NCBI RefSeq assembly: GCF_001468395.1
Contig: NZ_LNSG01000004.1
Coordinates: 372,001 to 436,000, forward strand
Length of the DNA: 64,000 nucleotides
Source of the DNA: Sphingopyxis sp. H073
Lineage (GTDB): Bacteria; Pseudomonadota; Alphaproteobacteria; Sphingomonadales; Sphingomonadaceae
Reading direction: 5' to 3'
Part shown: in pieces, positions 49,585-54,824 of the stretch
Numbering within the stretch: position 1 is the first letter of the stretch
Layout: every line of letters begins with the position of its first letter
The notes under the pieces: model-generated
Told to the model about the DNA's origin: nothing
Database searches by the model: none
What the model saw: only the letters and a program-made list of their open reading frames with translations
Made by a program: the position numbers and the translations under genes

Positions 49585-50064
49585 TCAGCGGCCTTGCCGC
49601 TTCCGCCGACCGATTTCCTCGATTTCCAGAAGGTCCATCGGAACCTGGATTGCGCGGATTGCCATGCGGACCCCGACGAAGAACAGCACAAGCGAAACGA
49701 GCAGCAGAAGCATCGCAAGCGCAAAGGCCCATGATGCGGCGACACCAAGGTTGATGCCGGTAAAGGCCTGGGTGAACAGCAGTGCGACGAGCAGGCAGAC
49801 GACGATGCCGCACGCGACCGCCGAGCCGATCGAATTGTTGATCACGCCCATGCGGCGGTCCGCCCATCGCAATTCGGCGACGACGCGCGCATGTTCGTCG
49901 CCCTCGGTCGCCGCCGAACGCTCCATCAGCGCGCGCGAGCGGTCGACGACGCGCGACAACCGGCCCGTCAGCACGTTGAGCAGGCTGCCCGTTGCGACCA
50001 GCAGGAACACCGGCGTGACCGACAACTGGATCGTCTGGGCAATCGCTCCCGCGTCGGTCGCCAT
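49585..50064 (-). CDS. DUF2721 family membrane protein
   Basis: A 159-residue membrane protein with the DUF2721 pattern: an N-terminal helix 'VTPVFLLVATGSLLNVLTGRLSRVVDRSRAL', a charged central segment and two further helices in the C-terminal half. Function unknown. Its ATG overlaps the stop of the caspase-like gene by one base (TGATG), so the two are translationally coupled. I prefer this start to one 17 codons upstream. Confidence 0.8.
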   Translation of the reverse strand: MATDAGAIAQTIQLSVTPVFLLVATGSLLNVLTGRLSRVVDRSRALMERSAATEGDEHARVVAELRWADRRMGVINNSIGSAVACGIVVCLLVALLFTQAFTGINLGVAASWAFALAMLLLLVSLVLFFVGVRMAIRAIQVPMDLLEIEEIGRRKRQGR

Positions 50065-50822
50065 CAATACCCCCCGGCCGCGCTGGCCGCCCCGGCGAAG
50101 GGGTCGTTGCGGCATCCGCCATAGAATAAAAGATTCCGCTGATGCGCGCGCCCGGCCCCCGCGATCTCGTCGAGCATGATCGCACGCGTCGGCAGCGCCG
50201 CCGCACCGCCGCGCGCCGGATAGTCGCCAGGCAACAAGGCGATCCGGCCGCGATGCTCGACACCATGCCCGGTCACATAGATTAGCGACGTGTCCGCGTC
50301 GGCCGACCGCAGGCCATGCGCGGTGAGCGCAGCCCGCAATTCGGCGCTGTCCCGCGCCACCACCATCTCGGTCGCGAAACCCGTCGATCGCAGCGCCCGC
50401 GAGATCCGGATGGCATCGAACGCGGCCCCGGGCAGCGACGGCAATTGGGTATCGAGCCGATATTCGGCAAATACGGCGACCAGTGCGACGCGGCGCTCGC
50501 CAGGCGCCGGCACGCCCAGCCGCCAGCCATCGTCGGCAAGCGCACCCGCGACCGGATGATGCAATTCGTCGCTATAGGCCGCGGTCAGTTCGAGCAGCCG
50601 GGGAAGCGCATCGCGAAACGCTGTATGGCCATCCTCCGCAACCTTGACGAGCGCCGACGCCAACGGATTGCCGCCGAACGCGTCGCGGTCCATCGCTTCC
50701 TCGCCCGGCGCGACCGAGGTGATCAGCACGGTCGGCGCGACATCGGCAGCCTGCGCGCTCGCGCCCGCAGCAAACAGATGCGCGGCGACGATCAGTGCCA
50801 TCCGGTGCACGGCGGCCGGCAT
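50064..50822 (-). CDS. Secreted caspase-like protein with permuted p10/p20 parts
   Basis: A 252-residue protein with an N-terminal signal sequence to about residue 25. Residues 110-240 match the p20 part of C14/caspase-like peptidases: 'RRVALVAVFAEY', 'LPGAAFDAIRISRALRSTGF', the catalytic H186 in 'YVTGHGVEHRG' and C237 in 'FYGGCRNDP'. Residues 31-95 ('VLITSVAPGEEAMD', 'NPLASALVKVAEDG') resemble the p10 part that normally follows p20. The order is thus inverted. The protein ends 15 residues after the catalytic Cys. It lies between an aminotransferase and a DUF2721 gene. Start choice is open between 50822, 50849 and 50801. Confidence 0.68.
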   Translation of the reverse strand: MPAAVHRMALIVAAHLFAAGASAQAADVAPTVLITSVAPGEEAMDRDAFGGNPLASALVKVAEDGHTAFRDALPRLLELTAAYSDELHHPVAGALADDGWRLGVPAPGERRVALVAVFAEYRLDTQLPSLPGAAFDAIRISRALRSTGFATEMVVARDSAELRAALTAHGLRSADADTSLIYVTGHGVEHRGRIALLPGDYPARGGAAALPTRAIMLDEIAGAGRAHQRNLLFYGGCRNDPFAGAASAAGGY

Positions 50823-50835
50823 CGTCTCCGGGCCT

Positions 50836-52047
50836 TCAGCCCGCTGCAACCGAGGGCGTGTTCACGCCATGCATCTGCAGGAATTTGCGAATGTTGCGCG
50901 CGGCCTGACGGATCCGCTGCTCGTTCTCGACCATGGCGATGCGGACAAAACCCTCGCCATCTTCGCCATAGCCGACGCCGGGCGCGACCGCGACCTTGGC
51001 GTGGGTCAGGAGCTGCTTCGAAAACTCGAGGCTACCCATCTCGCGGAGCGCGGGGGGCAGCGGTGCCCATGCGAACATCGACGCAGGCGGGCTCGGAATG
51101 TCCCATCCGGCGCGCGAAAAACTCTCCACCATGACGTCGCGGCGCTTCTGATAGAGTTCGCGGTTTTTCGCGACGATGTCCTGCGGTCCGTTGAGCGCCG
51201 CGCAAGCGGCGGCCTGGATCGGCGTGAAGGCGCCATAGTCGAGGTACGACTTCACGCGCGTCATCGCCGCGATCAGGCGCTTGTTGCCGACCGCGAAACC
51301 CATGCGCCACCCCGCCATCGAATAGGTCTTCGACATCGACGTGAATTCGATCGCGACATCCTTGGCGCCCGGCACCTGCAGAATCGAGGGCGTGGGGTTG
51401 CCGTCGTAGTAGAGTTCCGAATAGGCAAGGTCGCTGAGAACCCAGACCTTGTTCTCCTTCGCCCAGGCGACGAGCCGCTCGTAAAAAGCGAGATCGACGG
51501 TCTCAGCGGTCGGGTTCGACGGGTAGTTGACGACGAGGATCGACGGGCGCGGCACGGTGAAGGCCATCGCGCGGTCGAGCGCGCGCCAGTAATTCTCGTC
51601 GGGGGTCGTCGGCACACTGCGGATCGTCGCGCCGGCGATGATGAAGCCGAAGGTGTGGATCGGATAGCTGGGGTTCGGCGCCAGCACGACGTCGCCGGGG
51701 CCGGTGATCGCGGTCGCCAGGCTCGCAAGCCCTTCCTTCGATCCCATCGTCACGACGACCTCGCTTTCGGGGTCGAGTTCGACGTTGAAGCGGCGCGCAT
51801 AATAATTGGCCTGCGCGCGGCGGAGTCCCGGAATGCCCTTCGACTGCGAATAGCCGTGCGCATCGGGCTTCATCGCCACTTCGCACAATTTCTCGATGAC
51901 ATGCGCCGGCGGCGGCAGGTCGGGGTTGCCCATCCCCAGGTCGATGATGTCTTCGCCCGCGGCCCGCGCGGCCGCTCGCATCGCATTCACTTCGGCGATG
52001 ACATAGGGCGGCAGGCGCTTGATGCGATAGAATTCATCTTCGGACAT
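50836..52047 (-). CDS. Class I/II PLP aminotransferase (AlaC-like)
   Basis: A 403-residue fold-type I aminotransferase. 'DIIDLGMGNPDLPPP' at the N-terminus, 'NPSYPIHTFGFIIAG', 'VVNYPSNPTAETVD' and the PLP lysine in 'SMSKTYSMAGWRMGF' identify it. The style matches alanine transaminase AlaC and related LL-diaminopimelate/methionine aminotransferases; the amino donor cannot be fixed by eye. The caspase-like gene begins 13 bases after its stop, so they may share an operon. Confidence 0.88.
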   Translation of the reverse strand: MSEDEFYRIKRLPPYVIAEVNAMRAAARAAGEDIIDLGMGNPDLPPPAHVIEKLCEVAMKPDAHGYSQSKGIPGLRRAQANYYARRFNVELDPESEVVVTMGSKEGLASLATAITGPGDVVLAPNPSYPIHTFGFIIAGATIRSVPTTPDENYWRALDRAMAFTVPRPSILVVNYPSNPTAETVDLAFYERLVAWAKENKVWVLSDLAYSELYYDGNPTPSILQVPGAKDVAIEFTSMSKTYSMAGWRMGFAVGNKRLIAAMTRVKSYLDYGAFTPIQAAACAALNGPQDIVAKNRELYQKRRDVMVESFSRAGWDIPSPPASMFAWAPLPPALREMGSLEFSKQLLTHAKVAVAPGVGYGEDGEGFVRIAMVENEQRIRQAARNIRKFLQMHGVNTPSVAAG

Positions 52048-52175: not shown

Positions 52176-53948
52176 ATGAGCGATACGGGTAAGGACGACA
52201 CCAGCGACACGCCGAATCCCTTCCTGCCCTCGCCCGAAGACATACAGCATTGGACGAGCGTCATGGGCCGCGCGCAGCAGATGATGCTCGAATATGCGCT
52301 CGGTCAGGCGAACCAGGGCAACAGCGCCGCCGCCGGCCTGTTCGACCCCGCGAGCTGGCTGCAGAACCCGACGACGCAGGCCTGGGCCGAGCAGTCGACC
52401 AAGATGTGGGAGCAGGGCGCGCGCTTCTGGACCTCGCTCGCGACGCTCCAGCCGCCCTTCGCGCCCGCCGCCGATGCGCCCAAGGACAAGCGCTTCGCCG
52501 ACCCCGACTGGACCGCGAACCCGGTCTTCGCGCTGATCCGCCAGACCTATGGCCTGCTGACCGAACAATTGTTGACGACAACACGCACGATGGCGGGGCT
52601 CGATGACCATGCGCGGGCGAAGATGGAGTTCGCGGCACGGAACATGGCCGAGGCGCTGTCGCCCTCCAACCTCGCGATCACCAATCCCGAAGTGATCAAG
52701 CGCGCGGTCGAGACGCGCGGCGAAAGCCTGCTCAAGGGCTTGAAGCACATGCTCACCGACCTGTCGCGCGGGCAGCTCTCCCATGTCGACCCCGACGCGT
52801 TCGAGGTCGGCGTGAACATCGCGACGACGCCGGGGAAGGTGATCCACGAGACCGACCTTTACCAGCTCATCCAATATGAACCGACGACGAAGGACGTCTT
52901 TACCGTCCCGCTTGTCATCTTCCCGCCGTGGATCAACCGCTTCTACATCCTCGACCTCAATCCGGCGAAGAGCTTTGTCGCCTGGGCGGTCGAACAGGGG
53001 CTGACGGTGTTCATGGTGTCGTGGAAATCGGCCGATACCTCGATGAGCGAAATCGTCTGGGACGACTATATTGCGTCGCAGGTCGACGCGATCGATACCG
53101 TGCGCGAGTTGCTGGACGTTCCGCACGTCCACAGCATCGGCTATTGCGTCGCGGGCACGACGCTTGCCGCGACACTGGCGATGCTCGCCGCGCGCGGCGA
53201 GGGCGACAAGGTCAAGTCGGTGACCTTCTTCACCGCGCAGGTCGATTTCGAGCTCGCGGGCGACCTCAAGATGTTCGTCGACGACAGCTATCTGGCGCTG
53301 CTCCAGCAGCTTTCGGCGGGCGGGTTCCTCGACGGCCGCTATATGGCCGCGACCTTCAATTCGCTGCGCGGACGCGACCTGATCTGGAACTATGTCGTCG
53401 GCAATTATCTGCTCGGCAATGACTATCCGCCGTTCGATCTGCTCTACTGGAACGGCGACGTCACCAACCTGCCCGCGAAGTGGCACCGGCAATATCTGAT
53501 CGACCTCTATCGCGACAATCGCATGGTGATCCCGAACAGCCTGTCGGCGATGGGCACACCGATCGATCTCAAGAAGATCGAGACTCCGGCCTATATCCAG
53601 GCGGGGCGCGAGGATCATATCGCGCCGCTCGCCAGCGTCTGGCGGTTGATGGACCATCTGTCGGGACCGAAGACCTTCCTGCTTGCCGGCTCGGGCCATA
53701 TTGCGGGCGTCGTCAATCCGCCCGCCGCTGGCAAATACCAGTATTGGACCGGCGACAACGATGCCGCGACGCTCGACGATTTTATCGCGAGCGCGACCGA
53801 GACCAAGGGCAGCTGGTGGCCGCACTGGATCGGCTGGATTTCGGAACAGGATAGCGCAAAAACGGCTGCAAAAGGCGCGCGCATTCCGGGAAAAGGTGCT
53901 AAAAAGGCGATAGAGGATGCGCCCGGCCGCTATGTCAAGCAGCGGTAA
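52176..53948 (+). CDS. phaC: Class I poly(3-hydroxyalkanoate) synthase
   Basis: Polymerises 3-hydroxyacyl-CoA into polyhydroxyalkanoate at the granule surface. The 590-residue protein has the N-terminal region with 'NPFLPSPEDIQHW' and the alpha/beta core with the lipase-like box 'GYCVAG', placing the catalytic Cys at residue 324. 'PPWINRFYILDLNP' and 'WNGDVTNLPAKWH' are conserved, and the catalytic His is in 'GSGHIAGVVNPP'. Length is right for class I. The phasin gene follows; phaA and phaB are not in the window. Confidence 0.96.
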   Translation: MSDTGKDDTSDTPNPFLPSPEDIQHWTSVMGRAQQMMLEYALGQANQGNSAAAGLFDPASWLQNPTTQAWAEQSTKMWEQGARFWTSLATLQPPFAPAADAPKDKRFADPDWTANPVFALIRQTYGLLTEQLLTTTRTMAGLDDHARAKMEFAARNMAEALSPSNLAITNPEVIKRAVETRGESLLKGLKHMLTDLSRGQLSHVDPDAFEVGVNIATTPGKVIHETDLYQLIQYEPTTKDVFTVPLVIFPPWINRFYILDLNPAKSFVAWAVEQGLTVFMVSWKSADTSMSEIVWDDYIASQVDAIDTVRELLDVPHVHSIGYCVAGTTLAATLAMLAARGEGDKVKSVTFFTAQVDFELAGDLKMFVDDSYLALLQQLSAGGFLDGRYMAATFNSLRGRDLIWNYVVGNYLLGNDYPPFDLLYWNGDVTNLPAKWHRQYLIDLYRDNRMVIPNSLSAMGTPIDLKKIETPAYIQAGREDHIAPLASVWRLMDHLSGPKTFLLAGSGHIAGVVNPPAAGKYQYWTGDNDAATLDDFIASATETKGSWWPHWIGWISEQDSAKTAAKGARIPGKGAKKAIEDAPGRYVKQR

Positions 53949-54071: not shown

Positions 54072-54824
54072 ATGGCTACCAAGATGGATAGTGCCGAAAA
54101 GGCTTTCGAAGCCGCGACGCTGGAAACCGCCGCCAAGCCGGTGGCTGCTCCCGCCGCACCGGTTGCTGCTGCCGCGCCCGCGGTGGAAGCAAAGGCCGCT
54201 CCGGCGCCCGTGAAGACCAAGACTGTCGCGGCGAAGGCCAAGCCGGTCCAAAAGAAAGCCGCAAAGCCGGCACCGAAGAAGATCGCCGCCAAGAAGGCGG
54301 TCGCGAAGACCATTGCCCCGAAGCCCGTCAAGGCAGCGCCGAAGCCGGCCGCCGCCGTCACAAAAGGATTCAAGACCATGAACGACACCGTCAAGAAGTT
54401 CGCCGAAGAAGCCAAGACCCGCACCGAAGCGCTGACCGCCGATTTCAACGAAAAGGCGAAGGAAGCCATGGCGAAGACCAGCAAGCTCGCTGAAGAAGCG
54501 GTCGAATTCAACAAGGCGAACGTCGAAGCGCTCGTCGAATCGGGCAAGATCGCTGCCAAGGGCATCGAAACGCTCGGCCAGGAAGGCGTCGCCTTCGCTC
54601 GCAAGAGCTTCGAAGACACGACCGCTGCGCTCAAGGGCTACACTGCGGTCAAGTCGCCGGCCGAATTCCTGAAGCTCTATGCCGAAAACAGCAAGAAGGC
54701 GTTCGACGCCGCTGTTGCGCAGACGTCGAAGACCAGCGAACTCGTCGTCAAGCTGACGAACGACAGCTTCGCGCCGATCTCGAACCGCGTTTCGGTCATC
54801 ACTTCGAAGATGAAGGCAGCCTAA
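54072..54824 (+). CDS. Phasin family protein with histone-H1-like N-terminus
   Basis: A 250-residue phasin. The C-terminal part from about residue 100 is the helical granule-binding domain ('FKTMNDTVKKFAEEAKTRTE', 'LAEEAVEFNKANVEALVESG', 'SPAEFLKLYAENSKKAFDA'). Residues 15-95 are almost only Ala, Pro, Lys and Val ('KKAAKPAPKKIAAKKAVAK'), like histone H1 tails and the DNA-binding tail of PhaF. It may coat granules and also touch DNA. Strong ribosome site AAAGGAG. Preceded by two operator-like elements and followed by a terminator. Confidence 0.9.
   Translation: MATKMDSAEKAFEAATLETAAKPVAAPAAPVAAAAPAVEAKAAPAPVKTKTVAAKAKPVQKKAAKPAPKKIAAKKAVAKTIAPKPVKAAPKPAAAVTKGFKTMNDTVKKFAEEAKTRTEALTADFNEKAKEAMAKTSKLAEEAVEFNKANVEALVESGKIAAKGIETLGQEGVAFARKSFEDTTAALKGYTAVKSPAEFLKLYAENSKKAFDAAVAQTSKTSELVVKLTNDSFAPISNRVSVITSKMKAA

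Follow-up and report, generated by a model that had tools for sequence, protein, structure and literature searches.

The window, a stretch of 64,000 nucleotides from Sphingopyxis sp. H073, carries on its minus strand an aminotransferase gene, a caspase-like gene and a DUF2721 gene, in this order. The caspase-like reading frame opens, 13 nt after the first gene, with an ATG at 50822, and its stop codon, in overlap with the third gene, ends at 50064. Based on our data, a circular permutation of the caspase domain is very likely real in its product, P0001. The features considered here are the following.

50836 to 52047, minus strand: upstream gene for a class I/II aminotransferase (PRK09148 is the best NCBIfam model and exceeds its cut-off)
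50823 to 50835, minus strand: GGAG motif resembling a ribosome-binding site before the ATG, in the 13-nt gap after the aminotransferase gene (motif by eye)
50064 to 50822, minus strand: gene of the very likely permuted caspase-like protein P0001, 252 amino acids (open reading frame and full-length relatives)
50748 to 50822, minus strand: residues 1-25, signal-peptide-like, with a putative cut after AQA, at residue 25 (hydropathy)
50508 to 50732, minus strand: residues 31-105, p10-like segment (profiles for about 31-62, predicted model, alignment with cpCasp2)
50415 to 50417, minus strand: Asp136, retained and aligned with one putative S1-pocket Asp (alignment; S1 role presumed)
50265 to 50267, minus strand: catalytic His186 in GHG (His at this column in 33/33 canonical relatives)
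50115 to 50120, minus strand: Gly235-Gly236 preceding Cys237, with Gly235 at the canonical Asp column (alignment; Asp in 33/33 canonical relatives)
50112 to 50114, minus strand: catalytic Cys237 in GGCR (Cys at this column in 33/33 canonical relatives)
50103 to 50495, minus strand: residues 110-240, p20-like catalytic part (PF00656, our p20 HMM, predicted model)
49585 to 50064, minus strand: DUF2721 gene, with an ATG that shares 1 nt with the stop codon of the caspase-like gene, TGATG (PF11026, E 6e-32)

Pfam recognised only the p20 part of P0001 (PF00656, residues 110-195, E 5.5e-7), with 29.9 bits against a cut-off of 21.4; the relatives P0002 and P0004 scored 42.2 and 44.1 bits. Against our own p20 HMM this part of P0001 reached 86.9 bits. 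By the curated caspase model and the His/Cys dyad in its sequence, P0001 is a member of peptidase family C14. The initial annotation had described a signal sequence at the start of the protein, both catalytic residues in the C-terminal half and a chain ending 15 residues past Cys237, and all three points are borne out. The first 25 residues show a peak mean hydropathy of 1.83 over 15 residues, with AQA just ahead of residue 26, and a signal-like N-terminus was seen by eye in all three distinct members of the family.

The GC content of the gene is mildly raised (69.7% vs 65.4% for the window). Elsewhere in the window (52176-53948 and 54072-54824) lie a gene for a PhaC polyhydroxyalkanoate synthase and, downstream of it, an alanine/lysine-rich open reading frame that appeared phasin-like by eye.

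Relatives of the permuted protein and their active site

When 298 genomes from the same bacterial family were searched with the protein, full-length matches to P0001 came only from its own genome and three others (G253, G112 and G094; ranges on the query of 19-243 or 8-243); the other matches listed begin at residue 84 or beyond and are thus p20 matches. Among 80 congeneric genomes, the full-length permuted gene was present in one, that of the window (E 1e-10 in both searches). Profile searches at 1e-20 gave full-length matches in 3 of 396 genomes at the order level and 1 of 385 at the class level, a cut-off that could hide distant members at these two levels, as well as in two of the three genomes searched in the genus of G112 and one of three in that of G094. 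A junction profile, made of the p10 and the start of p20, matched 1 of 398 genomes across the phylum and two among 297 relatives of G112 (1e-5). Apart from the genomes of the three relatives, these searches yielded no new full-length member. These counts come from overlapping genome sets searched with different cut-offs, and in the family, order, class and junction searches many genomes had only part of their first-look candidates scored.

Additionally, a scan of genome contigs with two narrow peptide patterns, which tests absence elsewhere only weakly, returned one locus, in the metagenome-assembled genome Erythrobacter sp. 34-65-8 (L043), and its protein reads identically to that of G253. 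Viral contigs held no further full-length permuted member, and a phage search with P0002 gave no match. Among the best 30 of 127 and the best 30 of 119 plasmid records, no match covered at least 80% of the query, and some of the plasmid matches listed start as early as query residue 64 or 85. Among the genomes searched, the permuted family looks rare and patchy.

The set amounts to three distinct sequences and one near-copy, with open frames of 233-252 amino acids in four genomes. The relatives (P0002 to P0004) align with P0001 from end to end at 38-42% identity, share with it the GGNP and LPGA motifs besides the dyad, and the chains of the distinct members end 7, 15 and 19 residues beyond the Cys. 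In a tree of p20 sequences (58 rows), one clade (support 100/99) holds the permuted proteins; its long stem measures 2.29 changes per column, and it is weakly placed (90/83) beside 14 canonical proteins of the same bacterial family. This placement is unsure, as the tree program flags long branches that meet, including those of P0001 and P0004. We assume an origin from bacterial C14 peptidases, independent of the algal type III metacaspases. Relatives of canonical bacterial C14 peptidases are also encoded at 24 viral-contig loci of IMG/VR (L085-L108); two of these (L103:1501-1881 and L104:539-919) have no GHG at the expected His and may be pseudo-orthocaspases.

The dyad, with its GHG and CR motifs, is invariant in the four aligned permuted rows, that is, in all three distinct members, and Asp136 and the p10 residue Asp45 are also kept in every one of them. 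The column two positions before the Cys differs: the permuted members carry Gly or Ala where 33/33 canonical relatives have Asp. On the basis of structures of metacaspases and MALT1, we take this column and that of Asp136 to line the S1 pocket for Arg/Lys. Because an Asp kept by all canonical relatives is absent here, the P1 preference is probably altered, and the same loss might mean that the enzyme is inactive.

The latter possibility leads to the idea that the protein has the permuted fold but is a pseudo-peptidase or a binding protein, in which the altered S1 pocket ended protein cleavage. The loss of the Asp in all three distinct members would fit such a change of function, as would the long stem branch, and many pseudo-orthocaspases are reported from Alphaproteobacteria in the available sections of PMC6426788. 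Nevertheless, the His and the Cys are invariant in every permuted member, while the pseudo-variants of that survey, as far as these sections describe them, are defined by loss of the dyad. We regard a pseudo-peptidase as unlikely.

Gene neighbourhood and integrity

The initial annotation had also coupled the caspase-like protein to the DUF2721 membrane protein as a possible protease and membrane partner, the former acting on or with the latter. In the window, the start codon of the DUF2721 gene overlaps the stop of the caspase-like gene (TGATG), a hint that the two are co-translated. However, a DUF2721 match was found in 76 of the 80 congeneric genomes, that of the window included, against the single genome with the permuted gene. 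Of the other 75 congeneric DUF2721 loci we read the 29 best-matching, and in all of them the aminotransferase and DUF2721 genes adjoin with no caspase match between them (tblastn, E 1e-6). The gap between the two genes is at most 82 nt in 28 of these loci; the remaining one (L074) has 409 nt of other sequence in this place, and the junction thus seems to accept small inserts.

The permuted relatives have other neighbours. In G094, G112 and G253, the permuted gene follows a MlaD-like gene (a label based on a weak Pfam match, under the cut-off) and an ABC_trans_aux gene, which is a lipoprotein gene, and precedes a convergent ATP12 gene. The start of the permuted gene overlaps the end of the ABC_trans_aux gene by 16-19 nt (L010:1477-1495, L011:2157-2175, L012:1489-1504), a tight, operon-like junction. 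In G182, G243 and G194, the ABC_trans_aux and ATP12 genes adjoin without it. The genome of the window has the MlaD-like and ABC_trans_aux genes, and the flanking sequence fetched there contains neither a caspase nor an ATP12 match. Since the flanking pairs occur without the permuted gene at both sites, its presence varies at two sites, and it has no fixed partner in DUF2721. The proposed pairing did not survive this comparison, and a functional pair with the DUF2721 protein is highly improbable.

A rare and patchy distribution and a short C-terminus could also point to decay, the gene being a rearranged and truncated canonical gene that is now a pseudogene. Against this stand the open frames of 233-252 amino acids in four genomes, the retention of the dyad and motifs at 38-42% identity and, in a very small sample, four synonymous differences and one non-synonymous difference between the near-identical copies of G253 and G112. 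Decay of this kind is very unlikely.

A canonical protein that lost its C-terminal p10 through a frameshift was considered as well and rejected: no such p10 is hidden downstream, because the stop codon runs into the start codon of a DUF2721 gene that is near full length by Pfam and the relatives likewise end soon after the Cys, 7 and 19 residues past it.

The N-terminal half and the predicted fold

To compare the N-terminal half with canonical p10 we used profiles built from 33 canonical C14 domains found in the same searches, leaving out the repeats L036-L038 and a fragment (the second frame of L021). Against the canonical p10 HMM, the N-terminal halves scored 20.9 bits in P0002 and P0003, 17.5 in P0004 and 7.7 in P0001, and the maxima of 200 shuffles of each were 6.3, 5.7, 6.5 and 6.0 bits, respectively. 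The p10 match is clear for the relatives and marginal for the window protein taken alone. When the sequences were doubled, the alignment to the HMM of the whole canonical domain crossed the junction in all four proteins, reaching model position 189-194 of 235. Rotated sequences of the relatives exceeded their best shuffles (P0002, 92.4 vs 83.9; P0003, 92.4 vs 88.2; P0004, 102.1 vs 97.9), whereas rotated P0001 fell under its own (91.8 vs 95.9), its N-terminal half adding nothing beyond chance.

The family was also compared at the level of profiles. With HHalign, the N-terminal half matched canonical p10 with 93.8% probability (score 39.9, 30 columns) and canonical p20 with 0.6% (score 13.8), while 100 column-shuffled N-terminal profiles reached at most 1.4% and a score of 14.4 against p10. 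Between distinct members, residues 31-65 share 32-50% identity, comparable with p20 (42-50%), and residues 66-105 share 20-40%, the signal region having 18-44%. The p10-like stretch, formerly placed at residues 31-95, now extends from 31 to about 105, of which about 31-62 is recognisable from sequence, the remainder being placed by the predicted model.

A first structural model, for which P0001 and the protein of L043 were the two input sequences, was weak (pLDDT 52.5, pTM 0.59). Its best matches were the engineered caspase cpCasp2 (8vp4 and 9c2y, Z 13.6 over 198 residues), with Z of at most 8.9 for the remaining entries listed. A second model, by AlphaFold2, also drew on 20 p20 fragments taken from viral contigs and included zero canonical p10 rows. 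In its alignment (A7), four of the 24 viral-contig loci contribute no row (L093, L103, L104 and L108), L093 because the M at the start of its row stood for a GTG codon. Another alignment (A5), to which p10 fragments had been added, misplaced p20 rows and was unused for folding.

The second model reached a pLDDT of 80.2 and a pTM of 0.82, with a p10 part informed by two sequences only and a fold program that may know caspases from training. It shows a strand at 31-35 and helices at 53-63 and 69-83, followed by the p20 pattern from strand 111-117 through strand 229-234. It matched 9c2y and 8vp4 with Z of 20.3 and 20.2 over 203 residues at 3.0 A (range 23-241), followed in the list by MALT1 (Z 11.7 for range 97-245 and 11.4 for 99-242) and by native caspase chains at Z of about 11. 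MALT1 is a fair control, since p20 and p10 follow each other on its chain in the usual order; this does not apply to many native caspase entries, which split the two parts between chains. Foldseek also favoured the permuted entry (E 2.7e-9) over the best non-permuted chain (7.5e-6). That cpCasp2 is a circularly permuted caspase-2 is stated in the entry title, agrees with the numbering of 8vp4_B (356 to 1324) and is described in the available part of PMC7760212. No structure of an algal type III metacaspase was among the matches listed, and a sequence-only PDB search with P0001 gave nothing significant (a nanobody at E 0.31 on top, then MALT1 at 0.49).

In the predicted model, residues 31-95 pack as the p10 of the same fold, as in cpCasp2, and P0001 would accordingly have a caspase fold that includes p10. 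The order proposed in the initial annotation, p10 ahead of p20, agrees with both the profiles and the predicted structures. An ordinary p20-only orthocaspase behind an unrelated, merely p10-like segment would explain why residues 32-105, submitted alone, gave zero Pfam matches, why P0001 scores weakly with the p10 HMM and why residues 66-105 are poorly conserved, but with the N-terminal halves of the relatives matching p10 far above shuffles, both models matching a permuted caspase across the p10 part and residues 31-65 conserved like the catalytic part, it is extremely improbable.

Comparison with known caspases and possible activation

The p20 part of the permuted protein shares 27-38% identity with canonical C14 peptidases of the alphaproteobacterial type (orthocaspase or type I metacaspase-like) from the same bacterial family and class. 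Both groups have the dyad, the Asp column of the 'ND' motif and a p10 strand motif with a conserved Asp, and the two canonical paralogs in the genome of the window show, by eye, a signal-like start ahead of p20 as the permuted protein does. Unlike the permuted members, the canonical proteins run p20, linker and p10, have open frames of 437-697 amino acids in 32 of 33 cases and carry Asp rather than Gly or Ala two positions before the Cys. Canonical orthocaspases and type I metacaspases have p10 absent or C-terminal, while the p10-like segment is here N-terminal.

In type III metacaspases p10 ends before p20 starts, and the profiles and the model place the two parts of P0001 in this manner. According to the available sections of PMC5756287 and PMC6426788, type III enzymes have p10 N-terminal to p20 and are eukaryotic, calcium-dependent proteins of algae derived from secondary endosymbiosis; our comparison with them is by description alone. 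An Arg/Lys preference at P1 and calcium dependence are reported for them in PMC5756287, in the part available. The 2019 survey of caspase homologs in prokaryotes (PMC6426788) reports no p10-first type III enzyme from bacteria or archaea, with a cut-off of 30 bits to its own p10 HMM. The permuted p10 segments score 7.7-20.9 bits with our HMM, under that value although on a different model, and the survey could have missed proteins that score like these.

Engineered cpCasp2 and P0001 both have the small part before the large one, with new termini at the inter-subunit linker. As the best structural match of the P0001 model (Z 20.3), cpCasp2 shows 17% identity in the alignment; it is man-made from a human enzyme, is Asp-specific and has no bacterial signal peptide. 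Rearranged caspases-3 and -6, with the small part before the large part, have reportedly been engineered too. The paracaspase MALT1 matches by its p20 fold (Z 11.7), the aligned range being confined to the p20 part (97-245). P0001 thus shares its arrangement with type III metacaspases and with the engineered circularly permuted caspases, and is a C14 member by profile and dyad. In the open-licence PMC literature, we recognised no description of a circularly permuted caspase occurring naturally in bacteria, and such a protein is unmentioned in the available parts of PMC7889975, PMC8195603, PMC8580257, PMC3482391 and PMC3501461.

We consider it rather probable that the gene encodes a small, exported, circularly permuted cysteine peptidase of the caspase fold that needs no inter-domain cleavage. 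In such a protein, the p10 part would follow the signal peptide, a short linker would join its end to the first p20 strand, and the chain would stop just past the catalytic Cys, where canonical relatives have the p20-p10 linker. Because the chain ends right after the Cys and begins with p10, the new termini would fall at the linker whose cleavage activates animal caspases. The signal peptide may be removed about 2-6 residues ahead of the p10 strand, as judged by eye, after which the protein could fold directly into a working active site. Putative substrates would be envelope proteins, cleaved with a P1 preference unlike the usual Arg/Lys. We infer the export, activity, constitutive competence and changed specificity of the protein, as well as its periplasmic location, and propose that it may be a peptidase matured by export in place of linker cleavage.

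In the available part of PMC7760212, engineered single-chain cpCasp2 'was constitutively active', and all but one of the earlier circularly permuted caspases still cut themselves at the linker. Type I metacaspases, as described in the available sections of PMC5756287, are never auto-processed between p20 and p10, and for this reason a linker cut may be equally unnecessary in the canonical relatives from bacteria. If they remain uncut, the permutation removes no needed cleavage. A further reading makes the protein a natural bacterial counterpart of the engineered, permanently active caspases, namely an exported, permuted protease with a new pocket and a maturation tied to export, in which removal of the signal peptide, and not inter-domain cleavage, would free the N-terminus of p10. 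We hold this as a tentative and somewhat doubtful possibility, its odds being lowered by the reported lack of processing between p20 and p10 in type I metacaspases.

P0001 and its relatives would form a small family representing a bacterial p10-first case with canonical relatives in the same bacterial family, and would provide a simple system for asking how a chain break at the inter-domain linker affects activation. They would also be a natural counterpart to the engineered circularly permuted caspases used as tag-removal enzymes, possibly with a new cleavage preference.
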